Source of the DNA: Actinomycetes bacterium
GTDB taxonomy: Bacteria > Actinomycetota > Acidimicrobiia > Acidimicrobiales > RAAP-2
Direction of reading: 5' to 3'
NCBI GenBank assembly: GCA_021777285.1
Contig: JAJYDR010000133.1
Location: forward strand, 1-5,767
DNA length: 5,767 bases
Shown: in pieces, positions 1,919-5,767 of the stretch
How the letters are laid out: every line of letters starts with the position of its first letter
Position numbering within the stretch: the first letter of the stretch is position 1
Program-made: the position numbers and the translations under genes
Notes under the pieces: generated by a model
Databases searched by the model: none
What the model saw: only the letters and a program-made list of their open reading frames with translations
What the model was told of the DNA's origin: nothing

Positions 1919-1944
1919 AGGTTCCCCAATGAAAGTGGACACCC
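1917..1944 (+). repeat. Probable IS3-family left terminal repeat
   Basis: The stretch begins TGAGGTTCCCCAATGAAAG and continues GTGGACACCC. IS3-family ends start with TG and often show a CCCC block followed by a GGAC-type block, as here. The right end is outside the window, so pairing cannot be tested. The boundary at 1917 is inferred from this pattern and from IS256 similarity ending at about 686. Confidence 0.45.
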
Positions 1945-1949
1945 AAGAG

Positions 1950-1967
1950 CCCGGCTCGCGAGTCGGG
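1950..1967 (+). promoter_or_regulatory. Near-palindrome just ahead of the orfA ribosome binding site
   Basis: CCCGGCTCG is followed directly by CGAGTCGGG, an 18-bp near-palindrome with one mismatched pair (G:U in RNA). It abuts GGGAGG at 1969-1974. An alternative pairing of CACCC (1940-1944) with GGGTG (1965-1969) would reach the edge of the binding site. In a transcript read in from outside it could reduce orfA translation; the function is inferred. Confidence 0.4.
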
Positions 1968-1982
1968 TGGGAGGATGTCACC

Positions 1983-2249
1983 ATGGGAATAACGAGAAGG
2001 AAGTTCACTCTCGAGTTCAGAACCGAGGCAGCTCACCGCGTCATCGACACCGGCCGGACGGTGCGCGACATGGCGAAGGAGCTATCGGTTCTGGAGAACT
2101 CGCTGAGTACGTGGGTGCGTGACGAGCGTCGACGGATGGAGGCGCTGCAGGCCAGCAGCAACGAGCCACTGAGCGTCGCCGAACGGGCCGAGCTGCTGCG
2201 GCTGCGCCGTGAGGTCGCCGAGAAGGACAAGGACCTGGCATTCTTGGGA
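1983..2249 (+). pseudogene. IS3-family orfA (helix-turn-helix transposase subunit), 5' part, interrupted
   Basis: OrfA is the DNA-binding half of IS3 transposase; the catalytic half is made by frameshifting into orfB. ATG 1983 follows GGGAGG (1969-1974) at 8 nt; the longer in-frame start at 1929 lies in the terminal repeat. MGITRRKFTLEFRTEAAHRV leads into a helix-turn-helix at about residues 20-47 (TVRDMAKELSVLENSLSTWVR). A short leucine-zipper-like helix follows at 66-88 (AERAELLRLRREVAEKDKDL). The IS3 sequence stops at Leu88-Gly89 (2244-2249), where the RIT element begins. The frame now runs 26 codons into the RIT repeat and stops at TAA 2328-2330, so a 115-residue hybrid could be made. Its continuation (KAAAYFASKPPKQRDLR) lies at 5647-5700. 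The undisturbed protein would have been 106 residues. Confidence 0.9.
2244..2249 (+). repeat. TTGGGA flanking the RIT element, left copy (target duplication or crossover sequence)
   Basis: TTGGGA occurs at both borders of the RIT element (2244-2249 and 5641-5646) and in inverted form at 5615-5620. Only one copy is needed to rebuild intact orfA. This fits a 6-bp crossover region of a tyrosine recombinase, whether conserved by target matching or duplicated by insertion. Confidence 0.75.
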
Positions 2250-2332
2250 TTATGGGGAAACCCTGCTTATGTGGAAACGGTCACGAGAGTCCTTTGTTCG
2301 ACGCAGATCGAGCAGAAGTTTTCCGCATAATC
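2244..2332 (+). repeat. RIT terminal inverted repeat, left (89 bp, perfect)
   Basis: Base for base, this stretch is the reverse complement of 5532-5620. The outer 6 bp (TTGGGA) coincide with IS3 sequence, so the element's own part is 83 bp from 2250. It contains three copies of a short motif: TTATGGGGAAAC (2250-2261), TTATGTGGAAAC (2267-2278) and an inverted TTATGCGGAAAAC (2318-2330). These are probable recombinase-binding arms. The ritC stop codon TGA (2331-2333) overlaps its inner edge. Confidence 0.95.
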
Positions 2333-3329
2333 ACAGGGCATCGAGTATGGCCAGCAATGCGTCAGCCGGTCGATAGCGGCCGCGAGTCTTGCCGATCGGG
2401 GTGGTGCGGTCGAGAGCCTGCTCCTTGAGCGCGAGATCCGCGTGGACGTAGATCTGAGTCGTTTCAATTGATTCGTGACCGAGCCAGAGTGCAATCGAAG
2501 CAATGTCGCTTCCCGACTGCAGAAGCCGCATGGCCGCCGTGTGGCGAAGTACGTGCGGCGTCACGTCCTTTGAACTGAGCGAGGTGCAACATTCGCCCGC
2601 TGTCCGTGCGTGTCGAGCGACCAGCTTGCTCACCGCGCTGCGACTGAGCGGGCCCGAGCCGTGGGTGTTGGCAAAGAGTGGCGAGTCGAGGGTGCCGTCG
2701 TGTTCTGCCAGCAGGCGTTTGATCACCGACGCGGTCTTCTTCGTCAGCGGCGTCGTGCGCTCCTTTCGACCCTTGCCGGTGCAGCGCACGTGGGACCTCA
2801 CGTCAAAGACCACGTCGCCTCGACGCAGCCCCACCAGTTCCGAGACTCGCATCCCGCTCTGCAGGGCGAGCAGCAGCAACGCGTGATCCCGACGTCCGAT
2901 GAACTGGGTCTGATCGGGCGCCGCGAGCAGGGCCGTCACTTCGTCGTCGCTCAGAAATGAGACGAGCGCTCGTTCGAACCGTTTCGTGGGAATCGCAAGC
3001 ACCCGTTGAATGCTCTGGGCGTGTTCGGGGTGCCGCAGGGCGGCGAATCGGAAGAACGAATGGATGGCCGCGAGTCGGACGTTTCGAGTACGCGCGCTAT
3101 TGCCTCGATCGACCTCCAGGTGGTGCAGGAACGAACCCACCAGTGCGGCGTCGATGTCCTCAAAGCCGAGTGTCGATGGCGCCTTTGCGCTGCGGTCCTG
3201 GACGAAGGCGAACAGGAGCTTGAAGGTGTCGCGGTAGGCGTCGATCGTGTGAGGACTCACGTGCCGTTGGCCCATGAGGCGTTCCTTGAAGAAGGCCTCG
3301 AGCGTGCGTGCGAGAGCGGTCGAGCTCAC
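2331..3329 (-). CDS. ritC: Tyrosine recombinase RitC, third gene of the trio
   Basis: This is a 332-residue integrase-type recombinase that cuts and rejoins DNA through a phosphotyrosine bond. The N-terminal SAM-like core-binding domain covers about residues 5-115 (HVSPHTIDAYRDTFKLLFAF is typical). The catalytic domain follows from about 125. Active-site residues are R161 (SGMRVSEL), K186 (GKGRKER), H259 and R262 (PHVLRHTAA), H285 (WLGHESIE) and the nucleophile Y294 (TQIYVHAD). A basic tail at about 304-320 (ALDRTTPIGKTRGRYR) follows the tyrosine. The start is GTG 3329-3327, overlapping the ritB stop as GTGA, which implies translational coupling. Any ribosome binding site is weak (GAGG in the preceding ritB codons). 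The gene ends 2 bp inside the left terminal repeat. Of the three it is closest to classical XerC/D-like integrases. Confidence 0.93.
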   Translation of the reverse strand: MSSTALARTLEAFFKERLMGQRHVSPHTIDAYRDTFKLLFAFVQDRSAKAPSTLGFEDIDAALVGSFLHHLEVDRGNSARTRNVRLAAIHSFFRFAALRHPEHAQSIQRVLAIPTKRFERALVSFLSDDEVTALLAAPDQTQFIGRRDHALLLLALQSGMRVSELVGLRRGDVVFDVRSHVRCTGKGRKERTTPLTKKTASVIKRLLAEHDGTLDSPLFANTHGSGPLSRSAVSKLVARHARTAGECCTSLSSKDVTPHVLRHTAAMRLLQSGSDIASIALWLGHESIETTQIYVHADLALKEQALDRTTPIGKTRGRYRPADALLAILDAL

Positions 3330-4249
3330 GAGGTCGCCTCGTAGGTCGATTCAAGGCGCGTCACGGCGTGCTCGAGCAACTGGGGCGACGCGGACAAGTA
3401 CCAATACGTAGACGCCGGATTCACGTGACCCACGTAGGTCGACAACGACGGCATCAGTGCGCGGACGTTGGCGCCTTCGTCGTGCCATCGCACGAGTACG
3501 TTGACGCAAAACGTGTGCCGCGCGTCGTGGATGCGAACGTGACCCGACGGCGGGGACGCAATGGGAACCTTCGCCACCAGTGCGCGAAAGTCGGTGAGAA
3601 ACCGGTGATAGGGAATGCGGCCACCGGTGTCGGACACGAAGAAGGCCGAACTGGTTGTTCGAGGCATCAATTCCTCGCGTCGTCGCTCGTAGGCGAGGAG
3701 GGCTGCGACACACGTGGGATGCAGCGGCACTTCGCGGGACCGGTCGAACTTCGAGTGACGAATCCTCAGCACGCCTTCGTTCAAGTCCGCGTCACTGCGC
3801 TCGAGTCCCAGGGCTTCGCCGATGCGTAGACCGCTCGCGAAGAGCAGACCGAGGATGGCCTCGGTCGTCACGGCGCGCAACTTGGGTGAGAGTTCTCGTG
3901 CCGCCCTCATCAGGGACCACGCCTCTGCGGACGAATACAGGTAGGGCGCGGGGCGTCGGTAGCCGTGGGCGAGCAGGTGCGTCGGAGGAACGGTGGTCCG
4001 CGGATCGAGCGCCTGTAGGAAGCGGGCAAAGCCTCGCACCGCGCTCAGTCGCTGGGCGTGATAGGCCGCACCGCAGTTCGTAGGCTGGGTCGCCCAGGCG
4101 AGGGCCAGTTCGCTCGTCACCACGTCGGCGCGTTGTGCGTCGCAGTAGTCCACGAAGTGACCGAGCCAATGCTCGGCGTTGGCGAGGGCGTAGCCGAACT
4201 GGCGCCGCACGACGAGGTAGTCAGCCAGTTGTTGGCGCAGCGACGTCAC
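3326..4249 (-). CDS. ritB: Tyrosine recombinase RitB, middle gene of the trio
   Basis: This is a 307-residue tyrosine recombinase. The core-binding domain covers about residues 3-95 and includes RRQFGYALANAEHWLGHFVDYC. The catalytic domain shows R142 (ASGLRIGEAL), K167 (RHSKFDRSREVPL), H241 and R244 (IHDARHTF), H275 (TYVGHVNP) and Y284 (TYWYLSA). The nucleophile lies 9 residues after the last His, as in both partners. The segment between HDARH and the last His is longer than in its partners (WHDEGANVRALMPSLSTYVGH), a RitB-type feature that may reflect a specialised contact; this is inference. It starts at GTG 4249-4247 in a GTGA overlap with the ritA stop and ends in the same kind of overlap with ritC. 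The coupling implies that roughly matched amounts are needed. Confidence 0.93.
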   Translation of the reverse strand: MTSLRQQLADYLVVRRQFGYALANAEHWLGHFVDYCDAQRADVVTSELALAWATQPTNCGAAYHAQRLSAVRGFARFLQALDPRTTVPPTHLLAHGYRRPAPYLYSSAEAWSLMRAARELSPKLRAVTTEAILGLLFASGLRIGEALGLERSDADLNEGVLRIRHSKFDRSREVPLHPTCVAALLAYERRREELMPRTTSSAFFVSDTGGRIPYHRFLTDFRALVAKVPIASPPSGHVRIHDARHTFCVNVLVRWHDEGANVRALMPSLSTYVGHVNPASTYWYLSASPQLLEHAVTRLESTYEATS

Positions 4250-5475
4250 GACGAGCTCACGAGCGACGCGGGTGCTGACGCACGGAGAGTTGATCCACTG
4301 GGCCAGGGCTGGGCCGCGCGGATCAGCGTGGCGTGATCGGCCTTGGCGTAGACGCTGGTCGCGGAGACATCCTGGTGACGCAGCACCTGAGCGATCTCGC
4401 TCAGGTTCGAACCCGAACGCAGCAGGTGCCTCGCGACACTATGGCGCAGCGCGTGCGCCCTCGTCACCGGGACCTGCGCTCGATGGCACGTGGCGGCGAC
4501 GACCCCCGACACGCCCGTGCTCGAAAGGGGACCTAACGGCGCGACCAATCGGCAAAACACGTGGCGGTGCGTGCAGGGTGGTCGCCCCGTCGCCAGCCAG
4601 TCGGCGAGCGCTTCGCCGACGTCGACGGGCAGCGGCAGGGCGTCGAGACGTGGCCCCTTGCCGCGCACCGTGAGCTCACCGCGGCGCCAGTCGATGTCCG
4701 AGAGTTCCATGGCTGCCACTTCCTTCGCGCGCAGTCCGAGTCGGGCGAGCACGCTCAGGATCGCGAAGTTCCTCGAACCGGAGGCCGTGGTTCGATCACA
4801 ACTGTCGAGCAGTCGGTGGACGTCACTCGGCGTCACGCTCTTGGCGAGCGACTGGCCAGCGTCGGCGACCGCGGGTATTGCGTTGGCGAGATTGACCTGG
4901 GTCAAATCACGCACAAAGCAGTAGCGCAGGAAGGCTCGCAGGCCGGTGACGACGGGACCCGGCACGTGACGACGACACTCGTCAGTGACGAAGCCCAATA
5001 CCTGCGCGACGCTCAGTTGATCGAGTCCGTCAACGCGGTGGTCATCGAGGAACCGTCGCGCCACGCGTGCGTAGTCGCGGGCCGTGCTTGGAGCGAGACC
5101 CCGCTCTTCGATCACGTACTCACGAAAGTTCACGAGGAGTGTGTCGACGTCCGAGTCGCGAGCCACTAGCGGCCCGGGAATCGCGCCGGACGCCCGCAGG
5201 TAGCTCAACACTGGAGCCACGCCTTTGCCTGAGAGCAATCGAGCGTAGTCCTCCGTCTTTCGCGCGCGTAAGAACTCCTCGACGTGCGTCGACGTGAAGT
5301 CGATCGGCGCGAGCTGGTGCTGCTCTAGCCAACGACTCACGTGGGCGAGCAATTCGACGTGGTGACACACCGAGTCCCTTCGGTAGCCATCCCCCTCGAG
5401 CATCACCACGAATCCGTCAACGTAACGAACCAACGGGCCCGTCACCTTCACGTTTGCCAAATCTCGACTCATCAT
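4246..5475 (-). CDS. ritA: Tyrosine recombinase RitA, first gene of the trio
   Basis: This is a 409-residue recombinase, about 100 residues longer than a simple integrase. The extra part is an N-terminal domain (about 12-100, with VRYVDGFVVMLEGDGYRRDS) that looks like a second SAM-like fold and may bind accessory repeat sites. The usual core-binding domain follows at about 110-200 (LLVNFREYVIEERGLAPSTA). The catalytic residues are R249 (LGLRAKEV), K273 (RGKGPR), H341 and R344 (HALRHSVA), H367 (VLRHQDVSA) and Y376 (SVYAKAD). Two ATGs lie side by side: 5475-5473 leaves only 1 nt after AGGAGG (5482-5477), whereas 5472-5470 leaves 4 nt, so translation probably begins at the second. The binding site is buried in a hairpin (5474-5508). 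The gene ends in a GTGA overlap with ritB and leads the operon. Confidence 0.93.
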   Translation of the reverse strand: MMSRDLANVKVTGPLVRYVDGFVVMLEGDGYRRDSVCHHVELLAHVSRWLEQHQLAPIDFTSTHVEEFLRARKTEDYARLLSGKGVAPVLSYLRASGAIPGPLVARDSDVDTLLVNFREYVIEERGLAPSTARDYARVARRFLDDHRVDGLDQLSVAQVLGFVTDECRRHVPGPVVTGLRAFLRYCFVRDLTQVNLANAIPAVADAGQSLAKSVTPSDVHRLLDSCDRTTASGSRNFAILSVLARLGLRAKEVAAMELSDIDWRRGELTVRGKGPRLDALPLPVDVGEALADWLATGRPPCTHRHVFCRLVAPLGPLSSTGVSGVVAATCHRAQVPVTRAHALRHSVARHLLRSGSNLSEIAQVLRHQDVSATSVYAKADHATLIRAAQPWPSGSTLRASAPASLVSSS

Positions 5476-5508
5476 TCCTCCTCACTCGAACTGCACTTGA
5501 GGAGGAAT
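5474..5508 (-). promoter_or_regulatory. Hairpin hiding the ritA ribosome binding site
   Basis: ATTCCTCCTCA (5474-5484) and TGAGGAGGAAT (5498-5508) are perfect 11-bp inverted repeats separated by 13 nt. In the ritA mRNA the 3' arm holds the AGGAGG Shine-Dalgarno and the first two bases of the first ATG. A transcript beginning upstream of 5508 would therefore fold so as to block ritA initiation. Translation of ritB and ritC, coupled to ritA, would be reduced too. The pairing is seen directly; the control role is inferred. Confidence 0.65.
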
Positions 5509-5531
5509 CTTTAGCGACTGCGGTTCGCGAG

Positions 5532-5620
5532 GATTATGCGGAAAACTTCTGCTCGATCTGCGTCGAACAAAGGACTCTCGTGACCGTTTCCACATAAGCA
5601 GGGTTTCCCCATAATCCCAA
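5532..5620 (-). repeat. RIT terminal inverted repeat, right (89 bp, perfect)
   Basis: It is the exact reverse complement of 2244-2332 and carries the mirrored motif copies at 5603-5614, 5586-5597 and 5534-5546. Unlike the left end it does not border the IS3 sequence; a further 20 bp (5621-5640) separates it from the outer TTGGGA. It must also contain, or lie just upstream of, the promoter for ritABC. The only hint is CATAAT (5538-5533, minus strand), without a clear -35. Confidence 0.95.
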
Positions 5621-5646
5621 TTATGGAGAATTCTCCATAATTGGGA
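5615..5646. repeat. Perfect 32-bp palindrome at the RIT right end
   Basis: TCCCAATTATGGAGAA (5615-5630) is followed immediately by its exact reverse complement (5631-5646). Its inner 6 bp belong to the right inverted repeat, and its outer 6 bp are the TTGGGA shared with the IS3 target. The middle 20 bp (5621-5640) are two inverted copies of TTATGGAGAA, a variant of the motif TTATGGGGAA at the element's ends. No counterpart exists at the left end. Confidence 0.95.
5641..5646 (+). repeat. TTGGGA flanking the RIT element, right copy
   Basis: This is the direct partner of 2244-2249. It encodes Leu-Gly in the frame of the resumed IS3 orfA and forms the last 6 bp of the 32-bp palindrome. Confidence 0.75.
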
Positions 5647-5649
5647 AAA
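5643..5649 (+). promoter_or_regulatory. Candidate -1 frameshift heptamer G GGA AAA of the IS3 element
   Basis: GGGAAAA lies in the orfA frame as ttG GGA AAA, matching the X XXY YYZ slippery pattern. From here the -1 frame is open through orfB to the window edge. IS3 elements make their full transposase by a -1 shift near the orfA end, so this is a plausible site. Use of this heptamer is inferred. The RIT insertion now separates it from the orfA start. Confidence 0.4.
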
Positions 5650-5699
5650 GCAGCCGCGTACTTCGCTTCGAAGCCACCAAAGCAGAGAGATTTGCGTTG

Positions 5700-5767
5700 A
5701 TGGCCGCGGAGTGCGCGAACTTCGAGGTCACTCGCATGGCCCGACTCCTGGAGGTCTCGACCGCGGG
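5700..5767 (+). CDS. IS3-family orfB (DDE transposase catalytic subunit), start only
   Basis: MAAECANFEVTRMARLLEVSTAG is the typical beginning of IS3 OrfB, just before the GYYAW motif; the DDE domain lies outside the window. Its ATG overlaps the orfA stop as TGATG, and it is in the -1 frame relative to orfA. That frame is also open upstream to at least 5646, as expected for an OrfAB fusion. With orfA split by the RIT element, the fusion transposase cannot be made from this copy. Confidence 0.85.
   Translation, partial: MAAECANFEVTRMARLLEVSTA

Follow-up and report, generated by a model that had tools for sequence, protein, structure and literature searches.

The window (the whole stretch of 5,767 nucleotides that was analysed) contains a RIT element of 3,391 bp, at positions 2250-5640, which encodes three tyrosine recombinases and lies inside the orfA gene of an IS3-type element (Table 1). 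Three adjacent and overlapping tyrosine recombinase genes, a size of about 3.5 kb, and terminal inverted repeats place it among the RIT elements, and the order and sizes of the genes are those of RitA, RitB, and RitC. Inside the ends of the element, no further open reading frame (ORF) of at least 80 aa is present that does not overlap the rit genes. Alignment of 22 RitA sequences shows invariant columns at R249, K273, H341, R344, H367, and Y376; we take these to be the catalytic residues. Just upstream of the IS3 element, the start of a Mutator/IS256-type transposase (PF00872; 211-717) runs into an IS30-like element (HTH_38, rve) at 700-1866; together with IS3 and the RIT, four mobile elements are nested or lie side by side within 5.7 kb.

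Table 1. Features of the RIT element and of the gene that it interrupts, in window coordinates
Feature	Position	Strand	Remarks
IS3-type orfA (HTH_Tnp_1), 5' part of interrupted target	1929..2249	+	Ends in TTGGGA; Pfam PF01527, E=1.1e-13
Distal 6-mer TTGGGA, target/core spacer	2244..2249	.	At the palindrome-free end; touches the repeat directly
Left terminal inverted repeat, 83 bp	2250..2332	+	Perfect reverse complement of 5532-5614
Arms in left repeat: outward TTATGGGGA and TTATGTGGA; inverted CATAA	2250 and 2267; 2326-2330	+	By eye
ritC, tyrosine recombinase, 332 aa	2331..3329	-	ORF; PF00589, E=8.2e-36
ritB, tyrosine recombinase, 307 aa	3326..4249	-	ORF; PF00589, E=9.3e-20; overlaps ritA and ritC by 4 bp
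ritA, tyrosine recombinase, 409 aa	4246..5475	-	ORF; PF00589, E=2e-25
Right terminal inverted repeat, 83 bp	5532..5614	-	On ritA side
Complete core site, CCCCATAA-TCCCAA-TTATGGAG	5607..5628	.	Presumably unused; exact reverse complement of predicted circle junction
Inner 6-mer TCCCAA	5615..5620	.	Spacer of the unused core
Perfect 20-bp palindrome TTATGGAGAATTCTCCATAA	5621..5640	.	Two arms back to back; terminal part of element
Outer 6-mer TTGGGA	5641..5646	.	Adjoins the palindrome
orfA remainder (KAAAYFASKPPKQRDLR*) and start of downstream frame	5647..5767	+	In-frame continuation of 1929..2249

Joining positions 2249 and 5647 around a single TTGGGA restores the orfA frame (...KDLAFLGKAAAYFASK...), in agreement with the initial annotation, which had taken this 6-mer to be the target. 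An intact protein of the same orfA kind (P0121) was found in the protein database with 99% identity over 98%, and an IS3 copy from another genome (L146), 75% identical, reads CTGGGAAAAGC without interruption. The initial annotation had considered that an empty IS3 site might already contain the block 5621-5640; this block is absent from both of the uninterrupted IS3 relatives examined, and the palindrome of the window therefore arrived with the element. More widely, elements of the RIT kind appear to occupy many different targets.

The two terminal repeats form a perfect inverted repeat of 83 bp, or of 89 bp if TTGGGA is counted, which holds two arms 17 bp apart. All strings quoted in the initial annotation were recovered at their positions, as was the asymmetry that it had described: the right end carries an extra TCCCAA and palindrome, and the left end does not. 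Positions 5615-5646 constitute a perfect 32-bp palindrome without spacer (arm 16), the longest in the window; in 40 mononucleotide shuffles of the window, arms did not exceed 9. The predicted junction of the two ends, CTCCATAA-TTGGGA-TTATGGGG, has its exact reverse complement at 5607-5628, as expected for the closed, opposite-facing core that had been proposed beside the true end, and the match reaches 58 bases. This inverse copy exists because the whole junction assembled in silico (right repeat, TCCCAA, 20-bp palindrome, TTGGGA, and left repeat) is a perfect 198-bp palindrome and thus its own reverse complement; the second core is the mirror image of the first. The extra piece is not a stray half-site; it comprises a complete second core (repeat arm, TCCCAA, and palindrome arm) and one arm of the used site.

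Relatives were sampled by a RitA alignment search of reference genomes, of which the top 80 of 307 loci were taken; 39 of these genomes supplied further loci, and named plasmids another twelve. Most of the loci are draft or metagenome contigs. RitA, inverted repeats, and arms were located by script, which returned 156 RitA hits in 158 records, with inverted repeats in 96. Removal of hits without an inverted repeat (42), cut by contig ends (18), with unparsable arms (19), or duplicated (5) left 72 distinct elements. A palindrome was called where at least 7 of 10 pairs matched within about 20 bp, a level reached by background 20-mers in 105 of 12,900 draws.

A palindrome of about 20 bp is present at exactly one end in 48 of the 72 parsed elements, beside ritA in 25 and beside ritC in 23 (the latter include L017, which was scored ritC-side although its contig begins within a palindrome on the ritA side). 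Both ends are readable and the 6-mers complete in 43 of these 48, which were used for the 6-mer counts; in these 43, the palindrome-less opposite end averages 2.5 of 10 pairs, as compared with 2.7 in the background. Palindromes were scored at both ends in 4/72 elements (L011, L047, L051, and L149), in L149 through a ritC-side flank, apparently target DNA, that reaches 8 of 10. None was called at the 7/10 threshold in the remaining 20/72, among them four with neither flank in the contig and one that lacks a single flank. On the point raised in the initial annotation, whether one end always carries the extra palindrome, the answer is yes for the majority of elements and no for those with two or none; its assignment of the block to the right end was not upheld, as the block occurs on either gene side and its side goes with the target.

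L070 and L077 have a near-identical ritA; the palindrome is kept at the ritC end of L070, and other DNA stands there in L077, from which it follows that some of the 20 palindrome-less elements may have lost theirs. In another palindrome-less element, L071, both flanks resemble one and the same half of IS256-type genes, namely the QRC side, which would be expected of a hybrid of two insertions. Among the 12 loci on complete plasmids, six carry a one-sided palindrome (L148, L150, L151, L154, L156, and L157), among them the copy of Cupriavidus necator H16 in L148 with 9 of 10 pairs; the other six are L149, with palindromes at both ends, L143, L152, and L155, with best scores of 6, 5, and 4, respectively, and the unparsed L144 and L153. 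A strict palindrome-end pattern occurs at 21 places in 14 of the 39 RIT genomes, and in just these because the arms vary; the reversed pattern, used as a control, gave 0. Among 399 genomes of the order to which G025 (Paraburkholderia tuberum) belongs, none had the strict pattern, a result that bears only on the rarity of chance matches, as the RIT of G025 itself (L051) mismatches the pattern. L088 shows two palindromes at a distance of 100 bp, apparently a scaffolding duplication around an N. A search of viral contigs by protein identified no relative of the element; one viral contig does contain the identical 20-bp palindrome (L081:4551-4570), but this is probably coincidence, since its outer bases extend the hairpin and none of the six ORFs of at least 150 aa in its 7.9 kb looks recombinase-like by eye.

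The extent of the mirror varies among elements. Of 43 junctions assembled in silico, 20 have a symmetry of 95% or more over 100 bp (median 94%), and 18 reach this level over 180 bp. An element's two repeats are closest to each other over 80 bp in only 39 of 62 cases, and the long mirror is therefore not universal; the perfect 198 bp of the window stand at the top of a range of junction symmetry. When the comparison is restricted to 34 bp, an element's own repeats resemble each other more than they do those of any other element in 51 of 62 cases, with 5 ties (median 97% vs. 82%).

Outward from the palindrome, the six adjoining positions are symmetric in 32, 41, 39, 38, 43, and 41 of the 43 elements, and the next six in 6, 13, 16, 5, 6, and 13. 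This fall to background past 6 bp agrees with the layout first proposed for the window, that of a tyrosine recombinase site with a 6-bp spacer. The outer 6-mer equals the inner one (as reverse complement) in 29/43 elements, the inner equals the distal in 23/43, and the outer equals the distal in 23/43; when 6-mers were permuted among elements, such matches averaged fewer than 1 and never exceeded 6 in 5,000 permutations, and 36 different inner 6-mers occur in the 43 elements. All three 6-mers are equal in 18 elements, the window among them; the outer and inner agree but not the distal in 11, the inner and distal but not the outer in 5, the outer and distal but not the inner in 5, and all three differ in 4 (the distal 6-mer of L016, read through an apparent one-base deletion, was scored as a mismatch). 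The last two classes, in which the inner 6-mer equals neither of the outer ones, hold 9/43 elements, and the inner 6-mer is thus not always that of the target. An always-exact copy of the target, a point that the initial annotation had proposed to check, was rejected on account of these mismatch classes; the outer 6-mer beside the palindrome is matched in the 29 elements given above. At the same time, the inner 6-mer equals at least one of the outer two in 34/43, though the outer two differ from each other in 20/43.

A RIT target appears to be a 6-mer within a conserved protein domain. A Pfam match crosses the joint in all ten of the re-joined targets scanned (10 of 39 joined sites), in one of them below the cut-off; the domains are IS110, HisKA, HNH, RVT_1, DDE_5, ISAzo13, AAA_22, Transposase_mut, TnpB_IS66, and integrase core (below cut-off). 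The original state of these ten targets was likely a single 6-mer and no palindrome. Conserved coding motifs are cut by the insertions in L014, L026, L027, L043, L057, L062, L107, L108, L120, and L141; most belong to enzymes of mobile elements (IS256, IS110, IS66, ISAzo13, reverse transcriptase), in addition to a histidine kinase and an HNH protein. Judging by eye from ritC-side flanks, some RITs are inserted in genes for tyrosine recombinases: L154 lies in a ritB-like gene at a ...TYTYW motif, and L122 and L155 lie at ...HSLR and ...HTLR motifs, respectively. Insertion into such genes may explain nested, truncated rit clusters, for example those of pHG1 and EbN1.

Flanks of different elements were paired by flank similarity alone, at 60% identity over up to 30 bases. 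Palindrome ends yielded 24 similar pairs and other ends 18, as compared with 2 crosswise pairs, both at the 0.60 floor; shuffled flanks gave about 0.15 pairs. The rit genes have opposite orientation in 19 of 30 pairs with similar flanks, of which a few near the 0.60 floor (such as L027 with L067 or L123) may not share a gene. By these data, the side of the palindrome is tied to the target, and the rit genes can point in either direction. The window and L001, for example, share the IS3 orfA site and have opposed genes with the palindrome on the same side; further similar-flank examples are L108/L151, L019/L060, and the group inserted into IS256-type genes. In nine IS256-type insertions with a palindrome (L031, L037, L044, L045, L050, L057, L066, L070, and L106), its side relative to the conserved QRC..H codons or matching DNA is constant, as read by eye; it lies beside ritA in four of the nine and beside ritC in five. 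The pair L014 and L016 comes from one genome, where the two elements occupy the same IS110 site in opposite orientation and are identical in 3,327/3,327 bases between the arms; their palindromes are on the same target side, and the non-symmetric centre of the palindrome (GATGTC vs. GACATC) is turned with the genes. This is what one circle entering by its two different cores would leave. It is also possible that an IS110-RIT composite was duplicated, followed by excision and re-entry; no empty IS110 copy with the two flank patterns was found in that genome.

We consider it probable that the RIT circle carries a palindromic attachment site with two inverted and equivalent cores, either of which can be used, and that the unused one is left at one end of the inserted element. 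A RIT would move by way of a double-stranded circle, whose joined ends would read arm, s, palindrome of two arms, s', and arm, with s' the reverse complement of the 6-bp spacer s; the site of the circle would then consist of two complete, back-to-back cores of opposite facing. The recombinase complex, whose proteins would bind particular arms, would pair one core with a 6-bp target (in the window, TTGGGA in the IS3 orfA), and strand exchange would take place at the edges of the 6-mer. Each end would then hold part of the used core, the unused core and the central palindrome would remain together at one end, and the target's own asymmetry would determine the side on which the palindrome lands. 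One outer 6-mer would come from the target, the other from the used core, and the inner 6-mer from the unused core, and the classes of 6-mers described above would be explained in this way. Since the site is symmetric, either core would be usable, so that the rit genes may face either way; the extra palindrome at one end is most likely present because the junction of the predicted circle is perfectly mirror-symmetric and offers two equivalent sites for cutting. The initial annotation had suggested that the asymmetry of the ends could set polarity; the block does not set gene polarity, and looks instead like the trace of an attachment site without polarity. The earlier interpretation of the extra end block is in this way partly supported.

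A draft metagenome contig (L047) has a direct repeat of TGTCTC - palindrome - GAGACA at both ends of the RIT unit (1322-1353 and 4727-4758), attached to the ritC end, which is possibly what a circle or tandem junction would give; no other such repeat was seen in the 53 loci that were checked, some few of them representing one contig twice. None of 121 genomes of the family that includes G038 contained the full junction pattern, and no circle or tandem was seen in a complete sequence. Full-junction matches in L066 and L094, from a scan of the fetched loci, look like loose pattern matches to target DNA. In many bacteria, instability would be expected of a circle that holds a long perfect palindrome, which is a point against the two-core circle. 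Also against it are the 20 parsed elements without a palindrome and the 4 scored at both ends, the 19 loci with unparsable arms, the 9 elements whose inner 6-mer equals neither outer one, and the limited reach of the mirror in many elements.

Several alternative origins of the one-sided palindrome were considered. The palindrome lies at the outermost edge of the element, adjoining target DNA, on a side that follows the target, as would be the case if it were part of the target, such as a terminator or repeat hit by the element. We reject this reading, to which we assign virtually no probability: two uninterrupted IS3 relatives lack the palindrome, Pfam domains run uninterrupted across ten re-joined targets of various kinds in its absence, and the arms of the palindrome resemble the element's own arms in unrelated targets. 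It is highly improbable, too, that the palindrome has an accessory function and no crossover role, whether as an enhancer, a binding site, or a terminator hairpin shielding ritA. Its location upstream of ritA in the window would suit such a function; however, palindromes adjoin ritC and ritA with similar frequency (23:25), on which ground the ritA terminator in particular was rejected, and the palindrome is spaced like a core (arm - 6 bp - arm), with symmetry that ends at 6 bp.

Inversion in place would leave the palindrome fixed at one end and flip the rit module after insertion, through recombination of the inner core with the distal core or between the long inverted repeats. Palindromes beside ritA and ritC in about equal numbers are in keeping with such flipping, as are inner and distal 6-mers that stand in inverted orientation and are equal in 23/43 elements, and repeats that can be long and identical (96/96 bp in L043). 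L051, whose palindrome reads the same way beside both ends, fits in-place inversion better than it fits the two-core circle and counts as evidence against the latter. Inversion is nevertheless improbable as the general explanation, because it leaves the origin of the palindrome and its tie to the target unexplained, and because in L014 and L016, a single pair, the centre of the palindrome turned with the genes, which is not expected if the palindrome stays put. A rather unlikely explanation is fold-back copying, in which hairpin (template-switch) synthesis re-makes or corrects the second core together with the mirror arms, the inner 6-mer being a copy of the current one. The similarity of an element's own repeats over 34 bp argues for such copying, and agreement of the inner 6-mer with an outer one in 34/43 is arguably more symmetry than passive memory should keep. 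However, the advantage within elements over 80 bp is limited to 39/62, the central dinucleotide is not self-complementary in 23/48, and ordinary gene conversion or selection for two working cores could yield the same result; in addition, the outer two 6-mers agree while the inner differs in 5/43, so that copying is not obligatory.

Fold-back copying can be combined with the two-core circle. Passive inheritance alone should, we argue, lose the symmetry of the 6-mers, and some homogenization is therefore likely, whether by template switching within the palindrome, by gene conversion, or by selection that keeps both cores working. That the mirror is re-made or corrected in each cycle by fold-back copying, with the second core rewritten to the current 6-mer, is a somewhat unlikely form of this homogenization; were it true, RITs would be transposons without a polarity of their own, the asymmetry of their ends would be a fresh record of the core used, and the unused core could sometimes retain the 6-mer of an earlier home. 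The mirror site with two cores would explain the single palindrome, the variable ends, and the free orientation together. It also gives exact end coordinates for the annotation of RITs, and it predicts the junction sequence, two orientations from one circle, and a memory of 6-mers.

These data point to a known family of elements, the RITs, with an apparently undescribed attachment-site design. Passages of an earlier study (Van Houdt et al., 2012; PMC3414803) report for RITs a short inverted repeat with an overlapping palindrome, variable ends, and a location in a transposase gene, their mobility being unproven; the adjacent, overlapping ritA-ritB-ritC genes, the size of about 3.5 kb, the inverted repeats, and the interrupted transposase gene are shared with the element in the window. 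Symmetry of the circle junction, a two-core site, a side fixed by the target, and free gene orientation are not described in those passages. Palindromic or symmetric attachment sites of RITs did not appear in the literature searched, though the one-sided palindrome or its cause may have been described before. In a second study (PMC10214605), excerpts of which include a table giving RIT repeats as 34 bp, strand-biased circularizing integrative elements (SE) are likewise said to have several tyrosine recombinases and a circular intermediate, with a 6-bp target segment at one end and a 6-bp footprint of the earlier site at the other. Unlike RITs, SE carry intA, tfp, intB, and srap, have termini with motifs C and C', and reach a median of 15.7 kb, and the same excerpts describe no palindromic double core for them; the element in the window, with three recombinase genes only, does not contain the SE gene set. 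The Tn554 family, according to the same excerpts, resembles RITs in its tyrosine recombinases, target specificity, 6-bp footprint, and imperfect terminal inverted repeats (PMC10214605). It differs in having two recombinases and TnpC, which, according to passages of PMC5385486, determines orientation, whereas RITs appear to be orientation-free. The three PF00589 proteins of the window, with no further separate ORF of at least 80 aa, do not correspond to tnpA, tnpB, and tnpC. Nor do they correspond to the ginA-ginD set of GInt elements, in which ginD is no recombinase; the window has no fourth separate ORF of at least 80 aa inside the ends of the element. Tn916-type elements have 6-bp coupling sequences, a circle junction that carries a short piece of the former site, and insertion in either orientation; their circle has one crossover site, unlike the two inverted ones in the RIT palindrome.
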